This document shows positions 1,186-15,050 of a DNA stretch of 15,050 nucleotides, one piece after another. Each line of letters begins with the position of its first letter. The stretch's first letter is position 1. Position numbers and translations under genes: made by a program. The DNA comes from Acetobacteraceae bacterium (GTDB lineage Bacteria > Pseudomonadota > Alphaproteobacteria > Acetobacterales > Acetobacteraceae). The stretch covers positions 1 through 15,050 of the forward strand of contig CANJSR010000059.1 of assembly GCA_947476855.1 (NCBI GenBank). The letters run 5' to 3'. The notes beneath the pieces are model-generated. The model was not told the origin of the DNA. It saw only the letters and a program-made list of their open reading frames with translations, and ran no database searches.

Positions 1186-1194
1186 GGTGGGACG

Positions 1195-1200
1195 CCTCCT
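1195..1200 (-). promoter_or_regulatory. Shine-Dalgarno of metY
   Basis: A perfect AGGAGG on the minus strand, nine bases before the ATG at 1185-1183. It is the strongest ribosome binding site in the window and fixes the metY start. Confidence 0.8.
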
Positions 1201-1214
1201 ATGTCTCTGACGGA

Positions 1215-1242
1215 CTTATAGCGTGTGTCGCGGAATGGTAAA
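1215..1242 (-). promoter_or_regulatory. putative sigma-70 promoter of metY
   Basis: On the minus strand TTTACC (1242-1237, 4/6 to TTGACA) and TATAAG (1220-1215, 5/6 to TATAAT) are separated by 16 bases. Transcription would start near 1208, giving a leader of only about 20 bases, which leaves no room for a SAM riboswitch. This is a consensus match by eye; alphaproteobacterial promoters are loose, so confidence is moderate. Confidence 0.45.
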
Positions 1243-1253
1243 CTTGTTACGTC

Positions 1254-1276
1254 CCAGGGGACGGTGTTTCCCCCGG
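1254..1276. other. G/C hairpin between the DsbA-like gene and metY
   Basis: The arms CCAGGGG (1254-1260) and CCCCCGG (1270-1276) form a seven-pair stem (one G-T pair in minus-strand RNA) with a nine-base loop. On the minus strand it starts 29 bases after the DsbA-like stop codon and lies upstream of the metY promoter candidate. No T-tract follows, so it may be a weak or Rho-assisted terminator/3'-end stabiliser of the DsbA-like transcript, or an operator. Confidence 0.4.
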
Positions 1277-1305
1277 AGGTCACAAATCTGAAAAACCTTG
1301 CGTCG

Positions 1306-2052
1306 TCAGGCCGCCTTTTCCAGCAGGATCTTGTTGCCCCGCCGCAACGCATTGGCGATCGTCTCGGCCGGCATCGCGCCCGAGAACAGCCCATACCCGT
1401 CCAGGAAGAACGACGGCACGCCGTTCACCCCTGCCTCCCGCGCCGCCTGGTCCGCGGCCCGCATCTCCTGGTCCGCCAGCGGACCCGACAGGAACGCCAC
1501 AACCTCGGCCCCGTCCATCCCGGCTTCGACCGCGCAGGCGGTCAGCACGGCGTGATCGCCGACATCCGCGCCCTCGGTGAAATAGGCCCTGAACACGACC
1601 TCCATCGCCGCGTCCTGCACGCCCTTGGTGCCGGCGAACCAGATCAGCCGATGCGCGTCGATCGTGTTCGGCGTCCGCGTCATCAGGTCGGTGCGAAACG
1701 CCAGCCCGACGCCCGCCGCCGATTCGATGATCCGCTGGTCAAGCTCCGCCGCCTTGGCGGCGCTGCCGAACTTCATCGCCCGGTACGACGCCCGGTCCCG
1801 CCCCTCGGCCGGCATGTCGGGATTGAGCTGGAACGGATTCCAATGCACCGAGAAGTGCAGCCCCTCGGCCCGCAGCATCTCCAGCGCCCGTTCGAGTTGG
1901 CGCTTGCCGATATAACACCAGGGGCAGATCACGTCGGAGACGATGTCGATCCGCGTGCCCACCGCCGGCTTGGTGCCCAGCGAAACCGGCGCCGCCGTGT
2001 CGTCACATCCATCGGGGCCGCATACCGCGCCACCGGAGATATTGTCGTCCAT
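1306..2052 (-). CDS. DsbA-family (FrnE-like) thiol oxidoreductase
   Basis: A 248-residue protein of the DsbA/2-hydroxychromene-2-carboxylate isomerase superfamily (FrnE subgroup): a thioredoxin fold with an inserted helical domain, expected to be a cytosolic disulfide oxidoreductase/isomerase. Seen: catalytic CPWC at residues 43-46 after the beta strand IDIVSDVI, the FrnE-like WNPFQLNPDMP, the helical insert, and the cis-proline region GVPSFF near the C-terminus followed by FSGAMP. No signal peptide is visible. The start ATG (2052-2050) is preceded by AAGGGAGG with a 7-base gap; a longer in-frame extension to 2235 would run into the divergent GTPase gene and is rejected. An oddity is the N-terminal tail (1-34) carrying CGPDGC (C11 and C16), a second CX4C pair. 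It is divergent from the CobW-type GTPase across 48 bp. The exact substrate is unknown. Confidence 0.9.
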   Translation of the reverse strand: MDDNISGGAVCGPDGCDDTAAPVSLGTKPAVGTRIDIVSDVICPWCYIGKRQLERALEMLRAEGLHFSVHWNPFQLNPDMPAEGRDRASYRAMKFGSAAKAAELDQRIIESAAGVGLAFRTDLMTRTPNTIDAHRLIWFAGTKGVQDAAMEVVFRAYFTEGADVGDHAVLTACAVEAGMDGAEVVAFLSGPLADQEMRAADQAAREAGVNGVPSFFLDGYGLFSGAMPAETIANALRRGNKILLEKAA

Positions 2053-2071
2053 CCGCCTGCCTCCCTTGCCA

Positions 2072-2087
2072 GGGGCCTCGCGGCCCC
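2072..2087. other. perfect 6-bp hairpin in the divergent intergenic region
   Basis: GGGGCC (2072-2077), loop TCGC, GGCCCC (2082-2087). It lies between the two divergent starts (2052 minus, 2101 plus), a gap of only 48 bases that must hold both 5' ends. It could be an operator or a structured leader masking the weak ribosome site of the GTG start; the sequence does not decide. Confidence 0.4.
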
Positions 2088-2100
2088 GGATAGTCCGTTC

Positions 2101-3102
2101 GTGATCCCTGTCTCCATCGTCACCGGCTTCCTGGGCAGTGGCAAGACCACCCTGATCGGGCGTGTCTTGCGCGACCCCGCCTTCGCGCGCACCGCGGTCA
2201 TCGTGAATGAGTTCGGGGAGATCGGGCTCGACCACGAACTGATCGCGTCGAGCAATGAGACCTTCACCGCTTTGACCACCGGCTGCCTGTGCTGCGCGGT
2301 GCGCGACGACCTGGTGAAGACCCTGCTGGACCTGCGGGCCGATCCCGCCGCGTCCTATGACCGGGTGCTGATCGAGACATCAGGCCTGGCCGACCCCGCG
2401 CCGATCCTGCACGCGCTGATGACGGATCGGGACCTGGGCCGCGACCATGTGATCGACACCGTGCTGACCGTCGTCGATTCCCTGTTCGGCGCGACCACGC
2501 TGGATGACCATCCGGAGGCGCGCCGGCAGGTCGCGGTCGCCGATCTGCTGGTGCTCAGCAAGGCCGATCTGGGCGCGCCGTCGGCCGAATTGCTGGAACG
2601 GCTGGACGCGCTGAACCCCTCGGCCGAACGCGGGCGCTCCGATGCGATCGACCCTGCGTCGCTGTTCGGGCGGGTGGGGGGTGTCGCCAACGACCGCCTT
2701 GCCCGCTTGCCGGACCAGCCAGCGGCGTCTCCCTTTTCCACCGCCCGCCATTCCGACGGGGTCGAGACGTTCAGCCTGACGCGGGAGGCGCCCATCCCCG
2801 CCTTGGCTCTGACGTTGCTGTTGCAGGCCCTGGCGGAACATTGCGGCCCCGCCTTGCTGCGCATGAAGGGCATCGTCGCGATCGCCGAGGCCGATGACCG
2901 TCCCGCCGTCCTGCACGGCGTGCGTCATGTCTTCTCCCCGCCCGCCTTCCTGCCGGCCTGGCCCTCGGCCGACCGGACGTCGCGGCTGGTCTTCATCACG
3001 CGCGGCGTGCCCCGGTATTTCCCGGCCCGGTTGCTTGAAATGATCGAAGCCGAGGTTCATGAGGAAATGAACGCCCACAAGGGCGGCATGAATAATCGGT
3101 AA
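2101..3102 (+). CDS. CobW/COG0523-family GTP-binding protein (metal chaperone type)
   Basis: A 333-residue G3E-family P-loop GTPase; relatives (CobW, YeiR, YjiA, ZNG1) deliver or insert Zn, Co or other metals into client proteins. Seen from the GTG start: VIPVSIVTGFLGSGKTT places Walker A at residues 9-16; NEFGEIGLD at 36-44 (switch region); the metal-binding CxCC motif GCLCC at 61-65; ETSGLADP at 92-99; SKAD at 153-156 in place of NKxD; and a CobW_C domain from about 215 to the end containing RMKGIVAIAE. GTG at 2101-2103 is chosen because family members start two or three residues before the Walker A strand, and longer in-frame sequence overlaps the divergent oxidoreductase. The ribosome site is poor. 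There is no long His-rich loop, only scattered His near the end. The following binding-protein gene starts 23 bases after the stop, suggesting co-transcription. The metal and client are unknown. Confidence 0.92.
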   Translation: MIPVSIVTGFLGSGKTTLIGRVLRDPAFARTAVIVNEFGEIGLDHELIASSNETFTALTTGCLCCAVRDDLVKTLLDLRADPAASYDRVLIETSGLADPAPILHALMTDRDLGRDHVIDTVLTVVDSLFGATTLDDHPEARRQVAVADLLVLSKADLGAPSAELLERLDALNPSAERGRSDAIDPASLFGRVGGVANDRLARLPDQPAASPFSTARHSDGVETFSLTREAPIPALALTLLLQALAEHCGPALLRMKGIVAIAEADDRPAVLHGVRHVFSPPAFLPAWPSADRTSRLVFITRGVPRYFPARLLEMIEAEVHEEMNAHKGGMNNR

Positions 3103-3125
3103 TCCATTCGGGAGTTTCCAGAATA

Positions 3126-4703
3126 ATGCTCAACCGGCGTACTCTTCTCGCCGCGGCTGCCGTGTCGCCGCTTGCCCGCCCCGCCATCGCCGCGCCCAAC
3201 GCCCGCACCCTGGTCTGCGTCCCGCAGGCGGGCCTCACCTCGATCGATCCGGTCTGGAGCAGCGCGCAGGTCGTCCGCAACATGGCCTTCATGGTCTACG
3301 ACGTGCTGTACGGCCTCGATGAGAACATGGTCCCCCGCCCGCAGATGGTCGAAGCCGACCTGATGGAGGACGGCGGCAAGCGCTGGACCATCAAGCTGCG
3401 GGAAAACCTGGTCTTCCATGATGGGGAAAAGGTGCTGGCGCGGGACTGCGTTGCCTCCCTGAAGCGCTGGATGGCGCGCGACCAGGTGGGCGTCACCATC
3501 GCCCGCCGGACCGAGGCGCTTGAGGCGATCGACGACCGCACGATCGTTCTGCGCATGAACCGTCCGTTCCCGCATCTGCGCAAGGCCCTGTGCAAGATCA
3601 TCACCCCCGCCGTGATGATGCCCGAACGCCTGGCCTTGACCGATCCGTTCAAGCAGATACCGGAAGCCATCGGCAGTGGCCCGTTCCGTTGGCTGGCCAA
3701 GGAACAGGTCCTCGGCAGCTCCGCGGCCTTCGAGCGGTTCGACAAATATGTCTCCCGCAACGAAGCCCCCAGCTACATGGCCGGCGGCCGGCCGGTCTAC
3801 GTCGATCGGGTCGAATGGAAGATGATGCCCGACGGCGCCACCGCCGCCAACGCGCTGGTGACCGGAGAGATCGACTGGATCGAAATCCCGTTGCCCGATT
3901 TGCTGCCGATGCTGAAAAAGGCAAAGGGCGTGCGGACCGAGGTGCTCGACACCCAGGGCCAGATCCATTTCCTTCGCCCCAACCACACCGTTACGCCCAC
4001 GAACAATCCGGCGGTCCTGCGCGCGATGCTGGCCGCGATCGACCAGAAGGAGGTGATGCTGGCGGTCATGGGCGGTGATCCCACCAACATGATTACCGAT
4101 GTCGGCTTTCTCCGCAGCCCGCATCCGGAGGTCCGTGAAGCCGGGCTCGACCTGGTCCGCAAGCGGCATACGAAGGCTGAGATCAAGGCCATGCTCGACA
4201 AGGCGGGCTACAAGGGCGAACGCATCGCCCTCCTGCACGCGACCGAGCACACGTTCTACAACCCCTCCGCCTCCATCATCGGCCATCAACTGCGCGAAGC
4301 CGGCTTCAACGTCGACAACCAGCCGATGGACTGGGGTACCGTGCAGGCACGCCGGATCAGCAAGGAACCGGTGGAAAAGGGCGGCTGGTCGTTGTTTCCC
4401 AGTGTCGCACCGTTTCCCGACTATACCGATCCGCTGCTGGCCAACTTCATCCGCAGCAACGGCAAGGATGCCTGGTTCGGCTGGCCCGACGATCCGAAGA
4501 TCGAATCCCTCTATTCAACCTGGCTCGAAACATCGGATCCCGCCGAACAAATTAAACTTGAGCGTGACTATCAGCTTCAGGCCTTCGAAACGCTGCCCTT
4601 CATCCCGTTGGGCGGGTATCGACAAACCTCCGCCTGGCGGGACAATGTTCAGGGTATCCTGAAGGGCCCGTCGGTCGTGTTCTGGAACGTCAAGAAGACC
4701 TGA
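3126..4703 (+). CDS. ABC transporter periplasmic substrate-binding protein, family 5 (DppA/OppA/NikA type), copy 1
   Basis: A 525-residue extracytoplasmic solute-binding protein (SBP_bac_5) of the class that captures peptides, nickel complexes or glycosides for an ABC importer. Seen: signal peptide MLNRRTLLAAAAVSPLARPAIA (given here as the n-region LNRRTLL, an Ala-rich core and cleavage near PAIA-AP; the twin Arg makes Tat export possible); SIDPVWSSAQ and the YGLDENMVPRPQM segment typical of the family; LRENLVFHDGEKVLARDCVASLKRW; RMNRPFPH; EAIGSGPFR; and the C-terminal LPFIPLGGY. The length is normal. The ATG at 3126 has GGGAG about 11 bases upstream. It is followed by a close paralogue. No permease or ATP-binding genes adjoin it, so the ligand cannot be assigned. 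Confidence 0.93.
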   Translation: MLNRRTLLAAAAVSPLARPAIAAPNARTLVCVPQAGLTSIDPVWSSAQVVRNMAFMVYDVLYGLDENMVPRPQMVEADLMEDGGKRWTIKLRENLVFHDGEKVLARDCVASLKRWMARDQVGVTIARRTEALEAIDDRTIVLRMNRPFPHLRKALCKIITPAVMMPERLALTDPFKQIPEAIGSGPFRWLAKEQVLGSSAAFERFDKYVSRNEAPSYMAGGRPVYVDRVEWKMMPDGATAANALVTGEIDWIEIPLPDLLPMLKKAKGVRTEVLDTQGQIHFLRPNHTVTPTNNPAVLRAMLAAIDQKEVMLAVMGGDPTNMITDVGFLRSPHPEVREAGLDLVRKRHTKAEIKAMLDKAGYKGERIALLHATEHTFYNPSASIIGHQLREAGFNVDNQPMDWGTVQARRISKEPVEKGGWSLFPSVAPFPDYTDPLLANFIRSNGKDAWFGWPDDPKIESLYSTWLETSDPAEQIKLERDYQLQAFETLPFIPLGGYRQTSAWRDNVQGILKGPSVVFWNVKKT

Positions 4704-4793
4704 CATGGTTTGACGGGCGGGGAGGCACGGGAAAAAGGTCCGGTCAGGTCAATCTGGTAATCGCCGCATAAGGCGCCAGGGAGGAAAATGACC
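4704..4793 (+). other. short gap between the two binding-protein genes
   Basis: Ninety bases without a gene. TTGACG at 4710-4715 resembles a -35 box but no good -10 box lies 16-18 bases on (the region is purine-rich), so an internal promoter is not supported. The gap ends in the ribosome binding site of copy 2. Confidence 0.35.
4779..4784 (+). promoter_or_regulatory. Shine-Dalgarno choosing the second ATG of copy 2
   Basis: GGGAGG lies 3 bases before the ATG at 4788 but 9 bases before the ATG at 4794. The latter spacing is normal, so translation most likely begins at 4794 (MIKRRTLLKG). Confidence 0.65.
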
Positions 4794-6374
4794 ATGATCA
4801 AACGTCGAACCTTGCTGAAAGGTGCGGCCGCCGCGGCCGTGCCCCTCGCCAGCCCCGCCCTCGGGCAGCCGGCCAGCGTCCTGCGGGTCATGCCGCAGGC
4901 CGTGCTCAACACGATCGACCCGGTCTGGAGCAGCGCCCAGATCGTCCGCAACCTCGGCTTCATGGTGTTCGAGACACTGTATGGCCGCGATGAGAACCTG
5001 GTTCCCCATCCGCAGATGCTGGAAGGCGGGTTGATGGAGGACGGCGGCAAGCGCTGGACCCTGACGCTGCGGCCCAACCAGTGGTTCCATGACGGCACGC
5101 CGGTGCTGGCCCGGGACGTGGTCGCGTCGCTGAACCGGTGGAGCAAGCGCGACCCGGCCGGCGCCACGCTGATGGCCCGAATGGATGAGATGTCGGCCAA
5201 GGACGACCGCACCGTCATCCTGCGGCTGAACAAGCCGTTCCCGCATTTCCCCGAACTGATGTGCAAGGTCACCATCCCGCCCGTCATCATGCCGGAACGA
5301 CTGGCCGCGACCGATCCGTTCAAGCAGATCCCCGAGGCGATCGGCTCCGGCCCGTTCCGCTTCGTGCACAAGGAACACGTCCTCGGCAGCAAGGCCGTGT
5401 TCGAGAAGAACGAGAAATACGTCCCCCGCGATGAGGCGCCGAGCTACACGGCGGGCGGACGAAGGGTGTTTGTTGATCGGGTGGAATGGCTGATGATCCC
5501 CGATGGCGGCACCGCGGTGAACGCGCTGATGACCGGGGAACTCGACTGGATCGAAATCCCGCTGCCCGACCTGATCGGCACCCTCCGCAAGGCGAAGGGG
5601 ATCAAGACCGGGCATCTGGATACCTATGGCCAGATCATGGCGCTGCGCCCGAACCACCAGGCCGCGCCAACCTCCAACCCAGCGTTCCGGCGCGCGATGA
5701 TGGCAGCGATCGACCAGAAGGAGGTGATGACCGCGATCATGGGCGGCGACCCGGAAAACTGGTTCGTGCCCCAGGGATTCATGTTCACCGGCAAGAAGGA
5801 GGTCGACGAGGCCGGCCTGGACAATGTCCGCGCGCCCAAGAGCAAGGCCGAGATCAAGAAGATGCTGGATGCCGCGGGCTACAAGGGCGAAAAGCTCGCC
5901 CTGCTGCACGCGACCGAGCACACCTTCTACAACCCCGCCAGCCTGATCGTGACCCAGCAGTTGCAGGACGCGGGCATCAACGTCGACGCCCAGCCGATGG
6001 ATTGGGCGACCGTGCAGACGAGGCGCAACAACCGCGGCCAGTTGAACGAAGGCGGATGGTCACTGTTCCCGACCGTGACCCCGGTCGCCGAGATGCGCTC
6101 TCCCCTGGTCGGGATGTTCATGCGCGGCAACGGCAAGAACGCCTTCTTCGGCTGGCCCGAGGATCCCGAAACAGAACGCATGTACGACCAATGGCTCGGC
6201 GTTTCCGACCCGGCGGAACAGACGAAGCTGGAACGGGCGTATGAGCTTCATGCCTACCAGACGGTGCCGTTCATTCCGCTGGGGCGGTATGTCCAGTCCT
6301 CGGCCTGGCGGGAGAACCTGACGGGGATCCTGAAGGGGCCGTCGATCGTGTTCTGGAATGTAAAGAAAGGCTGA
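4794..6374 (+). CDS. ABC transporter periplasmic substrate-binding protein, family 5, copy 2 (tandem paralogue)
   Basis: A 526-residue binding protein, collinear with the preceding gene over its whole length and clearly more than half identical by eye. Seen: a Tat-like signal peptide (IKRRTLLKG, then an Ala-rich core, with cleavage likely after PALG before QP); NTIDPVWSSAQIVRN; the YGRDENLVPHPQML segment; NQWFHDGTPVLARDVVASLNRW; LNKPFPHFPE; EAIGSGPFRF; shared IDWIEIPLPDL-type and HATEHTFYNP stretches; C-terminal VPFIPLGRY and GPSIVFWNVKK. The two copies differ most in the middle (MITDVGFLRSPHPEV against WFVPQGFMFTGKKEV) and around WSLFP, places where ligand specificity often varies in this family. 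Start at 4794 from ribosome-site spacing; 4788 would add MT. No permease follows; the transcript probably ends at the hairpin near 6448. Confidence 0.93.
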   Translation: MIKRRTLLKGAAAAAVPLASPALGQPASVLRVMPQAVLNTIDPVWSSAQIVRNLGFMVFETLYGRDENLVPHPQMLEGGLMEDGGKRWTLTLRPNQWFHDGTPVLARDVVASLNRWSKRDPAGATLMARMDEMSAKDDRTVILRLNKPFPHFPELMCKVTIPPVIMPERLAATDPFKQIPEAIGSGPFRFVHKEHVLGSKAVFEKNEKYVPRDEAPSYTAGGRRVFVDRVEWLMIPDGGTAVNALMTGELDWIEIPLPDLIGTLRKAKGIKTGHLDTYGQIMALRPNHQAAPTSNPAFRRAMMAAIDQKEVMTAIMGGDPENWFVPQGFMFTGKKEVDEAGLDNVRAPKSKAEIKKMLDAAGYKGEKLALLHATEHTFYNPASLIVTQQLQDAGINVDAQPMDWATVQTRRNNRGQLNEGGWSLFPTVTPVAEMRSPLVGMFMRGNGKNAFFGWPEDPETERMYDQWLGVSDPAEQTKLERAYELHAYQTVPFIPLGRYVQSSAWRENLTGILKGPSIVFWNVKKG

Positions 6375-6447
6375 CCGGCGCTGCCTTTCGTTGCGGCGGC
6401 TGGCGCACCGGCCGCTGTAACGTTTGGCCCACCGGTCGGTCCTACCC

Positions 6448-6479
6448 GTCGTGGCGGCCGAAGGGCCGCCATCCACGAC
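6448..6479 (+). terminator. strong hairpin in the convergent gap, likely terminator
   Basis: GTCGT then GGCGGCC, loop GAAG, GGCCGCC, a 4-base ATCC bulge, then ACGAC: twelve pairs in all. It lies 73 bases after the second binding-protein stop and 73 bases beyond the convergent NUDIX stop, so it could serve both strands. No clear T-run follows on either side, so it may act as a Rho-dependent or processed 3' end. The rest of 6375-6552 shows no gene. Confidence 0.45.
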
Positions 6480-6552
6480 TTGCCCGTCAGCAACAGCGGA
6501 AAATCGTGGTGGTCAGCCCTGCGCCCACCAGGACGGGACTACGCTCCAGGGC

Positions 6553-7185
6553 TCAGTCAAACTCGGTCGGCAGGGACCGATCACGCCAATGGGCATACAT
6601 CTGCGCGATCTGGCGCGGGTTGATCCGGCGCGTGGACAGGTCGGAGGGGATGGCGTCTTCCGCGAACCAGCCGATCTCGCTGGTTTCCAGGCTGGTCGTC
6701 GCCTCTCCGCCCGTTGGTTCGCAGATGAAGAACAGGGTGGTGATGGAAAACGGCCCCAGTACCAGACCCTGGGTCGCCTTGTCCCAGGCGGCGGCGAGCT
6801 TCACCGGGCGGACGTGGAAGCCCGATTCCTCCCACACCTCCCGCACCACGGACTGCGCGGCGGTCTGGTTCACGTCGGCCCAGCCGCCGGGGATGGTCCA
6901 ACGGTGGTCGTCGGCGGTTTCGCGCACCATCAGAATTCGGCCGTCATCATCGAAGACCGCCGCGCGCACGCCCAGCTTGGGGGTCGCATAGCCGGCCTCC
7001 TGGCCGAAAAGGCTCTCGATCAGGCCCAGGTCGGCGCTTGTGTGTTCGGCCATGATCCGGGCCGCCAGCCCCATCAGCGCCTGGTAGCGGTCGAGGTCAT
7101 AGGGATCGCGGCTGAAGGCGAGGCCGGTCTGCGCCGTCGCCTGGATTTCCCGCGCCCACAGCAGCCAGTCAGGCTCCTGTCCCAT
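6553..7185 (-). CDS. NUDIX hydrolase with Nudix_N_2 domain (putative ADP-ribose/nucleotide pyrophosphatase)
   Basis: A 210-residue two-part protein. An N-terminal helical domain (about 1-60; WAREIQATAQTGLAF and DPYDLDRYQ are the hallmark of the NUDIX N-terminal domain found in COG1051-type enzymes) precedes the Nudix fold (about 68-200). The Nudix box runs from G101: WADVN, Q107, seven residues, then REVWEESGF (115-123). The box keeps R115, E116, E119 and E120, but the first conserved Glu is Gln (CAG). Members cleave nucleoside diphosphates linked to another moiety; the substrate is not predictable here. The ATG at 7185 shares one base with the bpt stop (TGATG), so it is translationally coupled as the last gene of the RDD-bpt-NUDIX operon. 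Confidence 0.9.
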   Translation of the reverse strand: MGQEPDWLLWAREIQATAQTGLAFSRDPYDLDRYQALMGLAARIMAEHTSADLGLIESLFGQEAGYATPKLGVRAAVFDDDGRILMVRETADDHRWTIPGGWADVNQTAAQSVVREVWEESGFHVRPVKLAAAWDKATQGLVLGPFSITTLFFICEPTGGEATTSLETSEIGWFAEDAIPSDLSTRRINPRQIAQMYAHWRDRSLPTEFD

Positions 7186-7973
7186 CAGGTCGTGGATTCC
7201 TGGACCAGTTCCTGTTCGGATGATCCCGCGCCGTCATGCCGCACCACATCGGCGTCCGTCAGCATGCGCCAGGTGCCGCCCGACAGGACCTCGGCGGGAC
7301 GGAAGCGGGCCTTGTAGGCCATCTTCCTGCTCTCCGGCACCCAATAGCCCAGGTAGACATGCGGCAGGCCCAGCGTGCGGGCATGGCCGATCAGCCACAG
7401 CACGGCCTGGGTGCCGAGGGATCGTTTCTCCATCCCCGGGGCGAAGAAGCTGTAGACGGCGGACAGGCCATCGCCGAGGCGATCGGTCAGGCAGGCGCCC
7501 ACCAGCCGGTCCTCCCCATCGCGGAACTCGACGATGAAGGTGTCGATCGGCGTGTCCTCGACCATCGCGCGGTAGTCGTAGAAGCTCATGGTCGCCATGT
7601 CGCCAGCGCCGTGGCGGGTCTGCTGGTAGCGCTGGAACAACTGGAACTGTTCCGCGGTGGCGCGGGCCGGGACCTCATAGGCTTCCAGGTCGGCGTTGGC
7701 CTTTTCGATTTTGCGGAGCGTGCGCCCGGGCTGGAAACTGGCGACGGGCACGCGGATCGGAATGCAGGCCTGGCAGTTGGGGCAGACGGGGGCATAGGCG
7801 ATGTTGTGGCTGCGGCGGAAGCCGGCGCGGGACAGGCGGTCGTGCAGGTTGTCGGCGTCGGGGCCGGTGATCTCGGTCACGACCTTCCGCTCCGTCCTGC
7901 CCGCGACATAGGGGCAGGGCAGAGGCGCGGTCGTGTAGAAGAACTGCGGGCGGCGCGCTGGCTTGTAGGTCAT
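7185..7973 (-). CDS. bpt: aspartate/glutamate leucyltransferase (Bpt, ATE1-like)
   Basis: A 262-residue aminoacyl-tRNA-protein transferase of the bacterial N-degron pathway. Family knowledge: Bpt adds Leu from Leu-tRNA to proteins with N-terminal Asp/Glu, sending them to ClpS-ClpAP. Seen: ATE N-terminal domain (about 10-90) with YVAGRTERKVVTEI, GFRRSHNIAYAPVC and the cysteine cluster CPNCQAC (64-70); ATE C-terminal domain (about 110-235) with RHGAGDMATMSFYDY, LTDRLGDGLSAVYSFF, LGTQAVLWLI and YLGYWVPESRKMAYKARF, all diagnostic. The C-terminal tail after about 240 is variable and acidic/polar. The ATG at 7973 overlaps the upstream RDD-gene stop by four bases (ATGA), and its own stop overlaps the NUDIX start, so all three are coupled. 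Length matches the family (about 240-260). Confidence 0.95.
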   Translation of the reverse strand: MTYKPARRPQFFYTTAPLPCPYVAGRTERKVVTEITGPDADNLHDRLSRAGFRRSHNIAYAPVCPNCQACIPIRVPVASFQPGRTLRKIEKANADLEAYEVPARATAEQFQLFQRYQQTRHGAGDMATMSFYDYRAMVEDTPIDTFIVEFRDGEDRLVGACLTDRLGDGLSAVYSFFAPGMEKRSLGTQAVLWLIGHARTLGLPHVYLGYWVPESRKMAYKARFRPAEVLSGGTWRMLTDADVVRHDGAGSSEQELVQESTT

Positions 7974-8488
7974 GGCCCATGCTGTCGGGGGTACGAACCG
8001 TCACCCATGTTCCATTGGCCCCGCGCCTGGGTCAACGCCTCAAGCGCTTCGACGCGCATGACGACCAGGCCGCTGAGTAGATCGTGCAGGGTCCGTTTGC
8101 GGGGAACGAACAGGGCGACGACCAGCAGCAGGCCGGATGTCGCGAGGGTTGCGTAGTAGACCAGGACGCTGACGACGGCCTGGAGCAGGGTGGGTGGGCC
8201 GAAATCGGCGTTGCGGCGGACGATCAGGCCGCACAGTTGCTGGCCGGGCGTGGCGCTGGCGGGGCTGAGCAGGGACAGCACGTGATAGAGGAACGGGACG
8301 AACGGCAGGACGGACAATAGACCGAACCCCAGCCCCAGCGTGGCGAAGCCGATCATCCAGATCAGGATGGCGAGGCCGAAGGCGATCACGCCGATTACGG
8401 CGGCATCGATGATCCAGGCGAACATGCGCCGGCCGAGCACGCCGTTGCTGACGAAATCATCATCGGGTTGTTGGTGGCCGTACTGCAT
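7970..8488 (-). CDS. RDD-family integral membrane protein
   Basis: A 172-residue inner-membrane protein of unknown molecular function. Seen: an RDD-type start (LGRRMFAWIIDAAVIG, with R20/R21 and D28), hydrophobic segments at about 24-48, 51-73 and 101-127, the TPGQQLCGL motif at 80-88, and the closing motif RTLHDLLSGLVVMR (132-145) that typifies the family. The polar C-terminal tail (146-172) is glycine/glutamine rich. It is first gene of the RDD-bpt-NUDIX operon; the ATG at 8488 has only a weak upstream AGG. RDD proteins have been linked to solute or ion transport in some bacteria, but nothing here decides that. Confidence 0.9.
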   Translation of the reverse strand: MQYGHQQPDDDFVSNGVLGRRMFAWIIDAAVIGVIAFGLAILIWMIGFATLGLGFGLLSVLPFVPFLYHVLSLLSPASATPGQQLCGLIVRRNADFGPPTLLQAVVSVLVYYATLATSGLLLVVALFVPRKRTLHDLLSGLVVMRVEALEALTQARGQWNMGDGSYPRQHGP

Positions 8489-8662
8489 GAAGCCGAACCT
8501 GCCGGGATGGGAGAACGGTTCCTATCAGGATGTCGGCGCGACGGACAGGATTTCCGGAGGTTGCAGCCATGTGGCTGCTGTTCATGGGCAGGGATCTGGC
8601 GTGCGGTTCCGGGCGGGCGGGGTTGGCCGGTGCTTGGGTGTTCTGCTTTGGTGGACACGGAT
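8489..8662 (-). other. gap between the methylase and the RDD operon
   Basis: About 170 bases without a supported gene. It must carry the promoter of the RDD-bpt-NUDIX operon unless that reads through from the methylase, but I see no convincing -35/-10 pair on the minus strand. Its far end is the first unit of the CACGGAT array. Confidence 0.4.
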
Positions 8663-8693
8663 TTACACGGATCTGGCACGGATTTTCACGGAG
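8656..8693. repeat. four-unit CACGGA(T/G) heptamer array
   Basis: CACGGAT at 8656-8662, 8666-8672 and 8677-8683, and CACGGAG at 8687-8693; start-to-start spacing is 10, 11 and 10 bases, one DNA turn each. The methylase stop codon (8665-8663) falls between units 1 and 2, so units 2-4 encode its last ten residues (GSVKIRARSV). Short interspersed arrays of this kind are known to me from other bacterial genomes, function unclear. Confidence 0.75.
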
Positions 8694-11600
8694 CCTGGCG
8701 GAGACGCCAGTGTCCGGGCGTTGGCGGTCCGGTGGGTAGTGATCCGGTCATAGGCCGTCAGGCACAGCGTCGGGGCCTCGGACCACGAGGCGTGACTGAA
8801 GCTCTTGAGCACGTGGGCGTATTCCTCGCGGGTCAGGCCGTAGGCATGGGCGACCACGGCATCCGCCTCGGCGCGCAGACGATTGCGTTCGGCTGGATTA
8901 GCGACGACTGGCCATCGAGCGCGGTTGCCGACCAGCGGGGCGAACCGGGCGTCGTTCGCGCAGAGTGCCGCGGTCGTTTCGGCCAAGGCGGTCAGTGTGT
9001 CCTCGGTCAGCGCCGGCATCGGCAAGCCGTCCAGCAGGTAGAGACTGAGATGCGTCGCCGTCTTCTGCCGCACCAGCCAGTCGAAGGGGAAGGCGTTGAA
9101 CACCGCGCACAGCGCCAGGGCCAGGCGGGGCGGGCGCGCGCCGGGCGTCTTTTCAACGGTCGCGGTATGACCCAGCACGACACCGGGCGGCAGGATCGTG
9201 GCGATGGCGGATCGTTCGTCGTTGGATCGCGCGATGTCGCGGAACGCGAGGCGGAAGTGCCGCACGGACTCGGCGACCAGGGGCTTGGCCGCCAGCGCCT
9301 CGGTGCGGACGCGATAGCGGGGCGCGGTGTCCCAGCGATCGGTATATTGGTGGAACGTCTTGCCCTCATGCAGCGGGCACCAGGCGGGATCGTCGCCGGC
9401 CCCACCGATCGGGGCGAACAGGCCGGCATCGTCGGTCATGTGCAGGTCGCGGCCGAGGCGAATGCCGTTCGACGCGCACCACGCGCCGAACCGCTGCCCT
9501 CCGTTGGCGAACAGCCGGCGCGCCAGGATCAGGTCGGCGGGGCCGCGCAGTTCCGTCAGCGTCTGGTACGGCCCGCCCGAGGCATCGATGAAAGCGCGGT
9601 CATAGGTCATCACCCGGGCGGGGTCCCCGGCCTGCCCGATCTCCTCCAGATAGAAGGCGCAGCGCACGGCATGGGCCGGACCGGGCCGGCGGGCCACGAC
9701 GAGGGCGAACTTGAAGCGGCTGTCGATGTCGAACAGGCCGCGCCGGTTCTCGAACGACAGGCAGGTTTCCAGGCCGTGGTCCAGATACAGCCGGCGGATC
9801 CCGGTCGTTCCCTCATTGGCATGAAACGCCGAGGGCAGTAGCAGCCCCACCGCCCCATCCGCCGCCGCCAGCCGGATCGCCCGCTCCGCGAACAGCCGGA
9901 ACGCATCGAGGTTCCCGGCCGTGGAGTCGCTGCCCATCCCCACGCGCTGGTGCCGGAACAGGCGGTTGGCGACGCGCTTTCGGCGGTCGAACCCCGCGCG
10001 GTAGGCGGCGAAGTCGTCCGCGACCGCGGGGTCGGCCAGGACCCGCGCCTCGATGGCCGCACGCTCCCGCTTGGTCGGCGCATCCAGTACGGACAGGTCG
10101 TGGCCGGCGACGAAATCGCTCGTGTTGTGCTGGATGACGTCCCAGGGCGGGTTGCCGATCACGGCGTCGAAGCCGGCGACCTCGGCGAAGGCGAGGTCCC
10201 AGGGCAGGGCTTCGGCCCCCGCTTCCAGCATGGCGGCCTGGCGCGGGGTGGGGGCCGCGGGCCAGGCGCCGGTGGCGGCGACCGCCTGGGCCAGGGCCTG
10301 CCACTCGTCATCGCCCTCCCGCGTCGCCAGCATCGCCGCTCCGGCCCAGGCGCGGGCCAGGTTCAGCAAGGGCGCGCGCGCCGACTCCAACGCTTCCCGC
10401 GCCGCCTGCTTCAGCGCCAGATCGGCGAGGTCGCGGCCCAGGGTGGCCCCGATCCGGCGCACCTGCTCGACCGCCGTCGCGTGCATTGCCGCCAGACGGT
10501 CGGCCAGCCCGGCAGCCAGCAGCGGATCGAGCATCCCGCCGCCCACCGGCAGGCGCCGCATGTCATCCAGGAACGGGCCGGCGAGCGAATCCCCCTGCAC
10601 CAGCCGGTGATCCAGGAAAGTCAGCGGCAGCCCCTCCGCGTGCGATTCCAGCCACAGGGCCAGTTTCGCGAGCTCGATCGCCAGCGGGTTGCGGTCCGCG
10701 CCATACAGGCAATGCACGGCCACCAACCGTCGGCACAGCGCCATCGCCCGCCGCTCGGCGATCCCGCCCTTGGCCAAGGCGGGCAGCCAGCTTGCCAGCA
10801 GCCCGTCGGGATCGGGCAAAGCGGCGATGCGGGCGGAGAGGACGGCGGCGCGGGCGGGGGGCGTCGCGGGATCGCGGGCCAGGGCGTCGCAGCGGCGGCA
10901 GGCGTCGAACAGCGCCTCGGCCAGGAAGCGGCAGGCTTCGACCAGGAAATGCCCGCTGCCGGTCGCCGGATCGACGACCCGCAACGCCAGGATCGCACCC
11001 GGGTCCGGGTCAGCGTCCGGGCTGCGGGACCGGCAGGCGGGGCCGAGGCTTTCCGCCACCAGGAAGCGGACGAAGCCGGTGGGCGTGTAGTAGCTGCCGC
11101 TGGCCTTGCGGCCCTGGCCGGCGCGCAGGAAGAACCGTCCGGCGGGGATTGCCTCCACCGCCAGGGGATGGGTGGGATCGGCGGCGATGACCACCTCCCG
11201 TTCGGATCGACGCAGGCGGCTCATCGGGCGGCCGGCGATGCCGGGTTCCAGGTCCAGGAGGGATTCGTAGACGCTGCCCAGCACCTCCACGTCCAGCGCG
11301 CCGTAGTGGACCCGTTCGCGTGCCCCGCCGGCGGGCGTGGTCCACAATAATCGGTCGAGCAGCAGCGCCACCGCCCGTTCGCCCCAGGGCAGGCGGTCGA
11401 GCACCGGCATCGTGTCCGCGGCGAACAACGCCCCGCCCAGCGGCGCGATCACCAGTTCGGCGCAGCGCAGCCCTTCTTGCGCGGCGCGGAACAACTGGCG
11501 CAGGCCGGTTTCCAGCATGCTGCCGGTCGCCTGGCCGTGGTCGAGGTGCCGCCGGACCAGGGGGCCGAGGGCCTGGTTGGGCGACAGACCCTCCCGCCAA

Positions 11601-12532
11601 AGCCGCGTGGCGGCGAAGCTGAATCCCTGCGCGGGGTCGGCGGACGCCTCCAGCTTCAGGATGAACAGCAGCCGGTGGATCAGGATCAGGCCGTCATGCC
11701 AGAGATCGGCGGGCGGGGGCGGGGCCGGCGCGTCCTGGATCACCGCCTGGAGGAATCCTTCCAGCGCCGCCCGCGCCTGGGTCCGCAGCGCGCCGGTGAC
11801 CCGCGCCTGGTGCAGGCGGGCGGCGTCGAGGATGCCGGGCAGGGCGGCGATGCCGGCCTCGCAGGCCAGGCGGAGCAGCAGGTCCAGCCCCTCGGGCGGT
11901 GGTCCGGGTGCGCGCCAGGCATCGAGCGGGAAGGACACATGGCTGTCCGGCAGGGCCGGGTCGCTGATCAGCAGGCGCAGGTCCATGCCATTGGTCAGCA
12001 GGCCCAGCCGCTGGTTGCCGGCGCGCAGGACGCGGTGGGCGGCGCGCAGGGGGCTGGCCCGCCAGGCCTTGGGCGCGCGGATCGGGGCGTCGAGGTCGGC
12101 CGCCGAACCGGTGGCCCAGGCGCGGAGCAGGCCGCCATCGCCCCCGTGCAGAAGGTGGCCGCCATCCTCCGCGCCTTCCCGGGTGGTGACGGGTTCGGCG
12201 CGGACCGGCGGGCGTAGACCCAAGGCGAGGGCCAGGGGTGTGACCGCGTGCCGCAGCACCTGGGTCGGGCCGGCGGTGGGCCCGAGCTGACGCAAATGGC
12301 CCTGGATCGCGCGCCAGATCGCGGCCAGGCGGGCGGGGTCGGTGGGCGGCAGCCCCAGGCGGGTCAGCACGTCGGGCAGATCGAGGCGGAGGAAGGACGC
12401 GGTCAGCGCGGACCCGGTCGCGGTCGGGGCCCGGGCGCTGGCTTCGGTCGCCACTGGTGGCGGCACAGGCCGCCGCGTGCCCCGCGCGCCCCGGTTCGGG
12501 GAACGACGGGCCGTGGCGGTCCCGGCCTTCAT
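8663..12532 (-). CDS. Eco57I-like N6-adenine DNA methyltransferase, DrmMI/PglX-like, of a defence module
   Basis: A 1289-residue class I SAM-dependent DNA methyltransferase. Seen, from the start: a low-complexity basic tail (1-45); an N-terminal domain with LGLLTNGMDLRLL near 175-187, resembling the nuclease-like N-terminal domain of type IIG enzymes but with no E-x-K catalytic pair that I can find; a long helical region (190-450); then methylase motif X (SGSYYTP, YYTP 481-484), motif I (DPATGSGHF, 521-529), DRNPLAIELAKLALW around 610-630, QGDSL near 650, and motif IV NPPW (794-797), the adenine-specific type. After it come a helical/target-recognition region and a C-terminal NAFPFDWLVRQ segment near 1150. 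The ATG at 12532 overlaps the helicase stop as ATGA; an in-frame extension to 12961 is only overlap with the helicase. Expected role: marking self DNA or signalling within an anti-phage system with the SNF2 helicase. The last residues come from the CACGGA array. Confidence 0.88.
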   Translation of the reverse strand: MKAGTATARRSPNRGARGTRRPVPPPVATEASARAPTATGSALTASFLRLDLPDVLTRLGLPPTDPARLAAIWRAIQGHLRQLGPTAGPTQVLRHAVTPLALALGLRPPVRAEPVTTREGAEDGGHLLHGGDGGLLRAWATGSAADLDAPIRAPKAWRASPLRAAHRVLRAGNQRLGLLTNGMDLRLLISDPALPDSHVSFPLDAWRAPGPPPEGLDLLLRLACEAGIAALPGILDAARLHQARVTGALRTQARAALEGFLQAVIQDAPAPPPPADLWHDGLILIHRLLFILKLEASADPAQGFSFAATRLWREGLSPNQALGPLVRRHLDHGQATGSMLETGLRQLFRAAQEGLRCAELVIAPLGGALFAADTMPVLDRLPWGERAVALLLDRLLWTTPAGGARERVHYGALDVEVLGSVYESLLDLEPGIAGRPMSRLRRSEREVVIAADPTHPLAVEAIPAGRFFLRAGQGRKASGSYYTPTGFVRFLVAESLGPACRSRSPDADPDPGAILALRVVDPATGSGHFLVEACRFLAEALFDACRRCDALARDPATPPARAAVLSARIAALPDPDGLLASWLPALAKGGIAERRAMALCRRLVAVHCLYGADRNPLAIELAKLALWLESHAEGLPLTFLDHRLVQGDSLAGPFLDDMRRLPVGGGMLDPLLAAGLADRLAAMHATAVEQVRRIGATLGRDLADLALKQAAREALESARAPLLNLARAWAGAAMLATREGDDEWQALAQAVAATGAWPAAPTPRQAAMLEAGAEALPWDLAFAEVAGFDAVIGNPPWDVIQHNTSDFVAGHDLSVLDAPTKRERAAIEARVLADPAVADDFAAYRAGFDRRKRVANRLFRHQRVGMGSDSTAGNLDAFRLFAERAIRLAAADGAVGLLLPSAFHANEGTTGIRRLYLDHGLETCLSFENRRGLFDIDSRFKFALVVARRPGPAHAVRCAFYLEEIGQAGDPARVMTYDRAFIDASGGPYQTLTELRGPADLILARRLFANGGQRFGAWCASNGIRLGRDLHMTDDAGLFAPIGGAGDDPAWCPLHEGKTFHQYTDRWDTAPRYRVRTEALAAKPLVAESVRHFRLAFRDIARSNDERSAIATILPPGVVLGHTATVEKTPGARPPRLALALCAVFNAFPFDWLVRQKTATHLSLYLLDGLPMPALTEDTLTALAETTAALCANDARFAPLVGNRARWPVVANPAERNRLRAEADAVVAHAYGLTREEYAHVLKSFSHASWSEAPTLCLTAYDRITTHRTANARTLASPPGSVKIRARSV

Positions 12533-15050
12533 GGCGCGTCCGGGCGCAGCATCAGCATGCCGATCGGGGTGATCGCGGGCACGCCCTGGATGGTGCGGGC
12601 GGCCAGTGCCTCGGTCCGCTCGCGGAACAGGGCGAGGACGGCGGCGGCGTCGCGGCGCTGTTCCGCGGGCGCGGTGGCATCGGCGGTGAAGGCGGCCAGG
12701 CGGTCCAGCGCGGTGGGGAGGGTCTTCCAGTCCGGCGCCTCCGGGACATCGCCGAACAGGTCGGGCGTGGGCGGTGTCCAGGGGCCGGCGATCTCGGTCG
12801 TCCGGCGGTTCAGCCAGTCGGTCAGCGTCCTCGTCTCCCGTGCCAGCATCGCGTCGTGGGTCGCGCGGAACCGTTCGGTGATAGCCCCGGCCGCCTCGGT
12901 CGCGAGGGCCAGCGCGTCGGGTCCCCGGTCTGGCACCCAGGCGGCGAACAGCCGGGACCATGTGTCGTCCGGTCCCTTGTCATCCGATCCTGAGTCGTCC
13001 GATCCTGTGTTGCCTTGGGCCAGCGCCAGCCAAGCGGCCGGGTCAACGATGACCCGAGGCGGCCCGGTTCGGTACAACCGAACCGCGATCACGTCGCGCA
13101 GGGCCGAACCCAGACCGTCCCGCAGATCCAGCGCATAGGTCAGCAGCACGGAGGGGTCGTCCTGGCCTCGGGCGACCGCGATCCGTGGGTCCGGGCCTTC
13201 GGCTGCTTCGGCCCGCATGTGTTCCGTTACGCGCCGGACCAAAGGGTGCGCCCAGCCGGGACAGGCGACCTCCCGCCCTTGTGCATCGCGCAACAACGCC
13301 GGATCGGCGGTGGCGCGTAGCCCGCCGGTCCCGGGGTCGTGCCCCGGCAGGCCGGAGAGGTCGGCGTGCCACGCCGCCGGGGGCACCAGCAGCAACGCCG
13401 ACTGGCCCGGATCGGTGCCGGCGGCCACAGCCAAACGATTGCCGGTCACCGGGGCGTCCGTCATTACCGACCCGCCCGCCAGCACGATCGCCTCGCCCAG
13501 GAAATCCAGTGGCCCGCGGCCGCCGATCGCCCGCGTCGCGCCCGGGGGCAGCCGGGTCGCGCTGGCGGCGCCGAGGCCGGTCAGCCAGCCATGCCGGACG
13601 GCCATCCGCTCGAAGCCGGCATAGGCTCGGTCGATCTCGTGCAGCAGGTCGCGATAGGCGGCGGCGTCGGCTTCCTCGGCCACCCGGTCAAGGCCACGGA
13701 TCGGTGAGGGCTTCGGCGGGAACAGCGGCGCCTGTTCCTCGGCGAAGCCCGCCACCAGGCCCGGCCCCAGCGCGTCGCCCTCCGCCGTCACGCCGATCGT
13801 CTCCGGCATCACGTCCAGCGCCAGGCGGGCGCGCTCATACTTCGCGATCAGGCGCAGCAGGAGCCGTTCCTCGAAGGTGCCGGCCAGATAGGGGTAGCGG
13901 ATATCCGGCTCGTGGCGCTGGCCATAGCGGTCGATGCGGCCGTTGCGCTGTTCCAGCCGGTTCGGATTGTAGGGCAGATCGAGGTGGATCAGATGCCGGC
14001 AGCGCTGGTGCAGGTTCAGCCCCTCGGCCAGCGAGTCCGTGCTAACCAGGATGATCGGGGCCTCGGTGGCGAAACGGTCCGCGGCCGCGGCGCGCCGGTG
14101 GTCGGGGTCGGCGCCGCTGATGGTCAGGATCGCGCCGCCGACCGACGGATCGGCCAGCAGGTGGTCGCGGGCGGCGTCCTGGCTGTCGGCGTATTCCGTG
14201 TAGACGAGGATATTGGCGTCCGGTTCGGCTGCCCGGATCGCGCGGATATCGGCCGCCAGCGCGCGCAGCTTGGGGTCCTCGGCCGCCGCGTCCTCGCCCA
14301 GGCGGATCAGCGCGCGCAGGGCGGCGGTGATGTCGCCCGCCGGTGCTTCATGCAGTTCGGCGGCCATGCCCTGGGCCTCCAGTTCCGCCTGGTCGCGTTC
14401 GTCCTCGGCTGACAGCACGCCATAGCGCGCGAGGCGCCGGCGATAGGTCCGCAGCGCGCGTGCCCGTTCCCGGCGAAGCGCCGCCTCATCCCCCACCGCA
14501 GCGAAGGCCGCGTGCCGGTCCGCCACCACGGCCAGGGTGTTGACGCAGGCCCGCAGCGTGGAGACCGATCGTTTCAACAGCCCCACGAAGGCCAGCGTGT
14601 CGGCTGGATGGCGCGGATGGGCGCCGCGCCGCAGTCGGGGCGCGATCAGGGCGGCCAGTGCCTGGTGGAACGCGAGCACGCGCGCATCCGCCGCGGGCGT
14701 CAGCGTGATCGGCAGCGGGGTCACCGTCCGCTCCCGAAACAAGGCGCGGCCGGTCACGGGATCGCGGACATGCGCCTTCAACCGGCGCACGACATGGCGC
14801 CGGTACGCCTGGCCCAGCAGCCGGCCCTCTCCATCCACCAGGCCCGGATCGAGCAGCCCCATCAGCGAGGCGAAATGCGCGTCGTTGCCGTCATGCGGGG
14901 TGGCGGTCAGCAGCAGCAGGCCCTCGGCCCGGACCGCCAGGACCTCGGCCAGGCGGCGGCGCTGGGTGTCGGTGGCGCCGTTGCCGACGCAGTGATGCGC
15001 CTCATCGATGATCGCGAGGTCCCAGGCGGATCGTTCCAGCTCCGCCAGCA
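12529..15050 (-). CDS. SNF2/RapA-type DEAH helicase (DrmD-like), 5'-truncated by window edge
   Basis: Superfamily 2 ATPase; 839 residues visible (first full codon at 15048), with Walker A and the N-terminus beyond the window. Numbering from the first visible residue: motif II DEAH at 15-18 (AIIDEAHH), motif III TATP at 48-51, motif IV NILVYTEYADSQ near 280, motif V STDSLAEGLNLHQRCR at about 336-351, motif VI RLEQRNGRIDRYGQ at 364-377. These match the HepA/RapA branch of SNF2. A C-terminal domain of about 400 residues follows: a conserved-looking PGWAHPLVRRVTEHMR, a repeat-encoded Asp/Ser/Gly linker (12963-13007) and a helical end. The stop (12531-12529) overlaps the methylase ATG by four bases, so the two are made together. 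In class 1 DISARM a SNF2 helicase (DrmD) is paired with an adenine methylase (DrmMI); that assignment is inference because drmA, drmB and drmC are not in the window. Confidence 0.88.
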   Translation of the reverse strand, partial: LAELERSAWDLAIIDEAHHCVGNGATDTQRRRLAEVLAVRAEGLLLLTATPHDGNDAHFASLMGLLDPGLVDGEGRLLGQAYRRHVVRRLKAHVRDPVTGRALFRERTVTPLPITLTPAADARVLAFHQALAALIAPRLRRGAHPRHPADTLAFVGLLKRSVSTLRACVNTLAVVADRHAAFAAVGDEAALRRERARALRTYRRRLARYGVLSAEDERDQAELEAQGMAAELHEAPAGDITAALRALIRLGEDAAAEDPKLRALAADIRAIRAAEPDANILVYTEYADSQDAARDHLLADPSVGGAILTISGADPDHRRAAAADRFATEAPIILVSTDSLAEGLNLHQRCRHLIHLDLPYNPNRLEQRNGRIDRYGQRHEPDIRYPYLAGTFEERLLLRLIAKYERARLALDVMPETIGVTAEGDALGPGLVAGFAEEQAPLFPPKPSPIRGLDRVAEEADAAAYRDLLHEIDRAYAGFERMAVRHGWLTGLGAASATRLPPGATRAIGGRGPLDFLGEAIVLAGGSVMTDAPVTGNRLAVAAGTDPGQSALLLVPPAAWHADLSGLPGHDPGTGGLRATADPALLRDAQGREVACPGWAHPLVRRVTEHMRAEAAEGPDPRIAVARGQDDPSVLLTYALDLRDGLGSALRDVIAVRLYRTGPPRVIVDPAAWLALAQGNTGSDDSGSDDKGPDDTWSRLFAAWVPDRGPDALALATEAAGAITERFRATHDAMLARETRTLTDWLNRRTTEIAGPWTPPTPDLFGDVPEAPDWKTLPTALDRLAAFTADATAPAEQRRDAAAVLALFRERTEALAARTIQGVPAITPIGMLMLRPDAP
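12963..13007. repeat. three 15-bp tandem repeats inside the helicase gene
   Basis: Units 12963-12977, 12978-12992 and 12993-13007 share the core TCxTCCGxTCC. Each unit encodes five residues: GSDDS, GSDDK and GPDDT. The unit length is a multiple of three, so gain or loss keeps the frame and only changes an acidic linker. Confidence 0.8.

Follow-up and report, generated by a model that had tools for sequence, protein, structure and literature searches.

The window analysed here, a 15,050-nucleotide stretch of an Acetobacteraceae bacterium (GenBank assembly GCA_947476855.1, contig CANJSR010000059.1, positions 1 to 15,050), closes with two long genes, a RapA-type helicase and, directly downstream of it, an NPPW DNA methylase. 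A first-pass annotation of this DNA had described the helicase stop as overlapping the start of the 1289-residue methylase by ATGA, and the sequence bears this out. The features of this helicase-methylase pair are as follows.

12529..15048, minus strand: RapA/SNF2-type helicase (ArmA-like), 839 residues, open at the window edge with its N-terminus cut off
14995..15006, minus strand: helicase DEAH motif (Walker B), whose D, E and H are invariant across 36 aligned rows
12529..12532, minus strand: ATGA overlap of helicase stop and methylase start, read from the sequence; the junction is conserved
8663..12532, minus strand: NPPW DNA methylase (ArmB/DrmMI-like, Eco57I family), 1289 residues, N6-adenine type by family
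11123..12424, minus strand: methylase N-terminal part, residues 37-470, modelled as a type IIG-like nuclease-fold domain with a helical connector
12116..12124, minus strand: R137-x-W139, where an ExK nuclease motif would be expected (putative placement, from alignment and model)
10943..10972, minus strand: methylase motif I, DPATGSGHFL (S-adenosylmethionine binding), from translation and alignment
10142..10153, minus strand: methylase motif IV, NPPW, from translation and alignment
8963..10042, minus strand: presumed target-recognition region, residues 831-1190, conserved in the window's clade and hypervariable in its sister clade

Pfam recognises Helicase_C in the helicase (E 8.1e-13) and Eco57I in the methylase (E 3.5e-14). 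By comparison with the nearest full-length relative (locus L002, 1016 residues), about 200 N-terminal helicase residues, including Walker A, lie beyond position 15050; Walker A is nearly invariant in the 36 aligned rows of relatives, and a model of the full-length L002 helicase has RapA as its best structural match by Z. The window is readable on the downstream side of the pair only, the region upstream of the helicase falling outside it. The methylase is recorded on a contig no longer than 15,693 bases, which leaves little of that assembly past the window.

A protein search returned 989 methylase homologues. The best 120 of these (query included) are 53-100% identical, most over about 95% of the query's length, and their named entries are Acetobacteraceae, Rhodopila, Rhodospirillales or merely hypothetical protein. 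Scanning genome contigs gave 74 loci, and a plasmid search added one from Pseudanabaena (L001). The methylase tree (59 rows) groups the window with 29 loci, labelled Acetobacteraceae, Rhodospirillales or Proteobacteria, in one clade (support 95), and none of its 30 rows has an adjacent YprA/DruE gene. The sister clade of 22 rows is drawn from cyanobacteria, Myxococcota, Acidobacteriota, Chloroflexota, Planctomycetota and others. A YprA/DruE gene of at least 800 residues lies in the fetched stretch of 14 of these 22; among the others, L040 has a 795-residue piece, below the 800-residue threshold, L045, L046 and L059 are short stretches, and L026, L032 and L047 have no such gene in the stretch examined, while their genomes match strongly. 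Where complete, the sister clade's YprA/DruE protein measures about 1740-1910 residues, and both scanned examples hit DruE profiles, at E values of about 1e-126 to 1e-128, and carry DEAD, Helicase_C and DUF1998/MZB domains.

Helicase, methylase and YprA-family protein are also the components of ARMADA, which a preprint (Bell et al. 2025, PMC12458937) describes as the helicase ArmA, the methylase ArmB, the YprA helicase-nuclease ArmC (its nuclease a C-terminal Vsr domain) and an optional ArmD. The preprint also notes a reversed gene order in cyanobacteria and archaea, states that Type I normally begins with the YprA gene, and reports that E. coli defence is abolished by loss of any of four ARMADA genes, ArmA and ArmB included. 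As described there, the survey took the YprA helicase as its starting point, so that armC-less pairs would escape it; none of the titles or abstract openings from our literature search, which left out subscription papers, concerned such a pair. The window's proteins are 35-46% identical to five sister-clade members over most of their length, and 24-32% identical over parts to those of E. coli ATCC 8739 ARMADA II and of the Type I-order locus L087. Among the YprA proteins, those of the sister clade share 45-68% identity with that of L021 and 26-27% with those of the Type I-like L070 and L087; the first 1003 residues of E. coli ArmC align at about 33% over 283 residues. Judged from sequence, the YprA-linked relatives in other phyla have the ARMADA layout, ARMADA being a relative of DISARM. 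L001 additionally encodes a ParE/RelE-like and UvrD protein resembling ArmD, and L048 GmrSD-type and Schlafen-type proteins. A kinase-AAA-DUF2357 cluster directly upstream of L001 was rejected as a partner set, none of its five proteins occurring in other loci, and viral carriage was rejected as well, none of 8 pattern-matching stretches in viral contigs encoding a relative.

Next to the pair, a tblastn search with seven YprA/DruE proteins found no YprA/DruE helicase in any of the 30 loci of the window's clade; the sole match, in L005, falls inside the pair's own helicase frame. The upstream stretch covered is at least 3.8 kb in 24 of these loci, 0.4-2.1 kb in five and undefined in L042, and YprA/DruE-type helicases were sought directly in these flanks, with no separate drmA or drmC profile scan there. 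Among the 43 genomes reached via loci, strong YprA/DruE matches occur in 15 of 15 outside the Acetobacteraceae, and the 28 genomes of the window's clade have a match at E ≤ 0.001 in nine and a strong one in four. We also sampled 33 genomes of a single genus, the GTDB genus of genome G010, including Rhodopila globiformis (L007, genome G006) and the window's nearest relative (L002, genome G001). Here the YprA/DruE profile is matched at E ≤ 1e-15 in four genomes: by a DruE 33% identical to E. coli Druantia III DruE over 1768 aligned residues, beside a DruH-like protein (22%); by a YprA-helicase-methylase locus that is complete and distinct from pair L015, whose genome it shares; by a Druantia-like protein of 2070 residues; and by a piece cut off at the edge of its contig, with 47% identity to a Type I-order YprA. 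An unlinked partner elsewhere in the genome was accordingly rejected, none of the four being a free partner as far as they could be read. DUF1998, the domain of DrmB, matches in five of the 33 genomes, in each case away from the contig that carries the pair, and is without a match in 28 of 33, or 26 of the 31 pair carriers (draft genomes); PglZ matches in none of the 33.

Two observations on individual genomes stand beside these counts. L087 (positions 1765-13960), in the genome of L015, is a complete ARMADA Type I-order locus coexisting with a solitary pair in a Rhodopila-type genome. DUF1998 frames of 629-658 residues in G014 (contigs C172 and C45), G020 (C37) and G339 (C385) have the size of DrmB and may point to DISARM loci of their own in these three genus members.

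Methylase and helicase occur together in the same 31 of the 33 genus genomes. A single methylase match is found in 28 of the 31 carriers, G312, G336 and G337 having two partial matches on separate contigs, and a family-wide Acetobacteraceae sample has the methylase in 9 of 299 genomes, eight of them in the genus list. The two non-carriers (G335 and G340) give no match to the neighbouring SDR gene either, at E ≤ 1e-80, so that loss of the pair there is indistinguishable from missing assembly. Among the benchmarks, the rpoB profile was found in 27 of the 30 genomes searched (29 pair carriers and one non-carrier), 25 over the cut-off, the RAMA domain of CcrM-type methylases in 29 of 33, and hsdR in 6 of 33 over its cut-off (17 of 33 at E ≤ 0.001). 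The frequency of the pair is thus like that of rpoB and RAMA and unlike that of hsdR.

Trees and distances were compared for 20 genomes with at least 1000 rpoB residues and long frames of both genes, 10 of 30 having been dropped because rpoB was short or absent, because a long frame was lacking or because no pair locus had been read. The rpoB tree has 11 of 17 splits in common with the methylase tree and 10 of 17 with the helicase tree (mean 0.18 and maximum 3 under label shuffles), and no split with a support of at least 95 is contradicted by another such split. Mantel r is 0.50 for rpoB and methylase (p 0.0003), 0.49 for rpoB and helicase and 0.96 for methylase and helicase; for L023's genome the rpoB branch is unusually long, and the marker could be faulty in that case. 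In 19 of 30 loci (L007 counted) the gene directly upstream of the helicase is an SDR gene with 75-89% identity to the L007 copy; the gap to the helicase frame is 45-104 bases in 14 of them, the SDR gene overlaps the mechanically chosen helicase start in 4, and in 1 it adjoins a split helicase frame. In L019, L024 and L031 its place is taken by a GYF-domain gene, which in other loci is the neighbour of the SDR gene. Downstream of the pair, one hypothetical gene is common to six loci and a glycosyltransferase to eight others. The ratio of nonsynonymous to synonymous substitution rates is 0.10-0.32 for both genes in nine close pairs, some sharing a member. By these comparisons, the pair is under purifying selection, and its vertical inheritance and near-core place in the genus are well supported.

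The junction is conserved too. In all 28 loci of the window's clade with both long frames, the methylase start codon lies -14 to +1 nucleotides from the helicase stop, and in 20 of them the two genes overlap by 4 nucleotides; in the 14 sister-clade loci the start lies within -20 to +40 in 10 and the 4-nucleotide overlap occurs in one. The count took the start codon nearest to a 4-nucleotide overlap, a bias toward overlaps that acts in both groups, and because the junction is kept in 28 of 28 loci the overlap is more than chance. Other genes, such as a Phd/VapC pair, can separate helicase and methylase in the sister clade: L001, a Pseudanabaena plasmid locus, has this toxin-antitoxin pair between them at 14125-14830, and in L021 (Calothrix) about 4 kb with other genes intervenes. 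Even so, the genes stay together in the relatives, and the outcome that the first-pass annotation had named as contrary to its reading, a helicase and methylase separated and unlinked, is not what the loci present.

The most telling difference between the two clades lies in the methylase residues 831-1190, after NPPW, the presumed target-recognition region, as such enzymes carry target recognition there. Sliding identity there is 0.21-0.50 in the sister clade and 0.51-0.66 in the window's clade. Across the full set of pairs, core identity is 0.638 in the window's clade versus 0.618 in the sister clade, and target-region identity 0.592 versus 0.381. Among disjoint nearest pairs, the target/core ratio is 0.96 in the window's clade (15 pairs, 30 rows, lowest 0.86) and 0.58 in the sister clade (8 pairs, highest 0.84; Mann-Whitney p 4e-6), the latter pairs drawing on 16 sister rows out of 22; a YprA gene lies in the stretch for 13 of these 16. 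With all 22 sister rows the ratio is 0.57 (11 pairs, highest 0.84; p 2e-5). When the boundaries were set in six ways and each pair was aligned separately, p ranged from 4e-6 to 0.003, with the weakest result for the shortest stretch, 900-1000. As controls, the N-terminus/core ratio is 0.97 in the window's clade versus 1.07 (p 0.03, in the opposite direction), and the helicase/core ratio 0.94 versus 0.87 (p 0.06). Of 119 further homologues fetched, one was too short and 118 were added to the set, and a FastTree tree places all of these on the same side as the window; 74 disjoint pairs from 148 sequences then have a mean target/core ratio of 0.96, and the lowest nearest-pair ratio in the window's clade is not below 0.77. 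By comparison, the methylases of L021 and L054 (both Calothrix) have cores 92% alike and target regions 49% alike, as expected of exchanged specificities. Taken at the level of sequence, the presumed target-recognition region is conserved like the core in the window's clade and hypervariable in equally diverged ARMADA-type relatives.

Methylase residues 37-470 were modelled with a predicted local distance difference test score of 90.7, and fold comparison likens them to a type IIG nuclease-like domain followed by a connector. In both clades, nearly every aligned row has LRxW on the strand on which ExK would be expected, the motif having been placed without residue-level superposition, and a conserved ExK was not seen on that strand in the alignment. 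Foldseek with the N-terminal domain gave no match at E ≤ 0.001, and when the nuclease-like domain was compared by sequence with solved structures, no hit reached significance (best E 0.54). The methylase N-terminus thus seems, from the model, to be type IIG-nuclease-like in fold yet without ExK.

The genes downstream of the pair had been given as RDD, bpt and NUDIX, and domain searches agree.

7970..8488, minus strand: RDD-family membrane protein
7185..7973, minus strand: arginyl-tRNA-protein transferase Bpt/Ate
6553..7185, minus strand: NUDIX hydrolase

Elsewhere in the window, 1225-6374 holds ordinary genes, a CobW-type GTPase followed by two tandem family-5 solute-binding proteins. The guanine plus cytosine (G+C) fraction of the pair is 0.731 versus 0.659 for the remaining window. 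Recent horizontal acquisition was considered and rejected: in 16 of 20 relatives the pair is likewise G+C-richer than both flanks, and an excess common to the relatives' pairs is no sign of recent transfer.

We propose that the pair is an ArmA-ArmB-type translocase and methylase, nuclease-less, vertically inherited and of fixed specificity, which probably marks the chromosome rather than cutting phage DNA; we put the chances of this at about even. It is a more tentative proposal that an anti-phage system was domesticated genus-wide into a helicase-driven chromosomal N6-methyladenine machine after loss of the ArmC helicase-nuclease, although the comparisons do suggest an immune module turned into a routine DNA-marking machine. 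The pair would be derived from, or share an ancestor with, ARMADA defence systems; ArmC would have been lost in one Acetobacteraceae clade, in which the pair became inherited and near-core. Loss of armC is more economical than its repeated gain elsewhere, because outgroup and sister lineages both have YprA partners, an argument that rests on a methylase tree rooted at its midpoint only. The two proteins may form one machine, whose SNF2 motor would move along DNA and let the methylase place N6-methyladenine at one fixed chromosomal motif. Without the nuclease, DNA would be marked instead of cut, the role would be epigenetic or one of maintenance, and immunity would be lost or secondary. The simplest role would be that of a motor-assisted writer of a fixed mark, because there is no recognisable nuclease and specificity is constant across the genus.

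Several points weigh against this proposal. Evolution of the pair is about seven times as fast as that of RpoB (mean distances of 0.59 and 0.62 versus 0.083), a high rate for a housekeeping enzyme, and the rpoB-methylase correlation is only moderate. Neither the SDR nor the GYF-domain gene lies upstream in 8 of 30 loci, and in L042 (Acidisphaera sp. S103) the helicase is split over two frames with the methylase open, a real break or an assembly error. The boundaries of the target region were chosen post hoc, after the sliding-window plot, and 3 of the 74 pairs of the enlarged set have a target/core ratio below 0.85. The contrast in this region may stem from horizontal spread as much as from the presence of ArmC, because the sister clade spans several phyla and the window's clade one genus and its kin. 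Most of the genus genomes are apparently draft metagenome-assembled genomes of unreported completeness, which makes single absences weak.

Because the pair evolves so fast and its motor is intact, motor and methylase could instead be a minimal non-cleaving immune system that still stops unmodified incoming DNA, for example by blocking replication. BREX, by comparison, is thought to act without simple cleavage. This explanation, which we consider doubtful but worth taking seriously, gains from the intact ATPase and methylase motifs and from homology to ArmA and ArmB, both needed for E. coli defence according to PMC12458937, where loss of any one of the four genes nevertheless ends that defence. 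It sits poorly with a pair that is vertical and near-universal in its genus, has one methylase match in most carriers and a fixed target region, and lives in genomes without a PglZ match. That the pair is a restriction system whose nuclease is encoded elsewhere, or lies concealed within the helicase or the N-terminal part of the methylase, is improbable: LRxW stands where ExK would be expected, Foldseek found no match at its threshold, and most of the genus genomes are without a DUF1998 match.

Two further alternatives place the missing genes beyond the window. A complete ARMADA, its armC missed or upstream of the window's helicase, would fit the helicase's position at the window edge and the Type I order, in which the YprA gene normally comes first (PMC12458937). 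It is nonetheless very improbable, the upstream gene being SDR or GYF-domain in 22 of the 30 clade loci, and a YprA/DruE gene being found neither in any of the 30 nor, at E ≤ 1e-15, in 29 of the 33 genus genomes. Slimmer again are the chances of the end of a DISARM locus with drmABC beyond 15050, one of two possibilities that the first-pass annotation had raised. DrmMI and DrmD are indeed the top PADLOC profiles for methylase and helicase (1.1e-61 for the latter), only core regions being matched, and the upstream side is beyond the window's reach. The DrmD equivalog NF038317 (cut-off 610 bits) is not reached, however, by the window's truncated helicase (222), L002 (349) or L007 (367), and since E. 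coli ArmA also scores only 348, the DrmD score assigns the helicase to neither family. The nearest relative, L002, has the SDR gene upstream, and no drmB linked to the pair was found in the genus, its DUF1998 proteins being confined to other contigs. The other possibility, a helicase-methylase module without the DISARM core, is the one that holds, given also the absence of YprA/DruE genes from the clade's loci. Of the partial DISARM-like or undescribed defence module that had been envisaged, the pair itself stands, DISARM is not supported, ARMADA is the closest described system, and the word defence is doubtful, because the pair is vertical, near-universal in the genus and fixed in its target region, with no recognisable active nuclease.

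If the proposed conversion to chromosomal marking is correct, the pair would clearly exemplify an immune system of several genes that lost its weapon and was kept as a core DNA-marking machine. It comes with a built-in comparison, a YprA-linked sister clade that diversifies the target region and a clade that holds it constant, and it allows a test of how motor and methylase act in ARMADA, DISARM and BREX once their nuclease is gone.

Set beside known systems, the pair is most like ARMADA, with a RapA/BrxHII-like helicase followed by an adjacent PglX-like methylase, to which the sister clade adds a YprA/DruE-family helicase; it differs in having no ArmC or ArmD, in being vertical in one genus with a fixed target region, and in being only 24-30% identical to E. 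coli ArmB and ArmA over the aligned parts. Class 1 DISARM likewise combines an SNF2 helicase and an adenine methylase, and supplies the best PADLOC profiles, but the pair's contig has no DUF1998 protein and the DrmD score is far under its cut-off. BREX type 3 (BrxHII and methylase) and the BREX-related systems (PMC12839542) also join a RapA-like helicase to an N6-adenine methylase, whereas PglZ is matched in none of the 33 genomes of the pair's genus. Type IIG enzymes (BpuSI, DrdV, MmeI) resemble the modelled methylase chain in their N-terminal nuclease-like fold and connector and in a target-recognition region that follows NPPW, and differ in that the pair's methylase apparently lacks ExK and is coupled to a separate motor. 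The core orphan methylases CcrM and Dam are vertically kept, fixed in specificity and without a nuclease partner, and they are small and helicase-independent. The pair resembles them in being near-universal in its clade, congruent with the species tree and conserved in its target region, and departs from them in having a co-translated motor of about 1000 residues.

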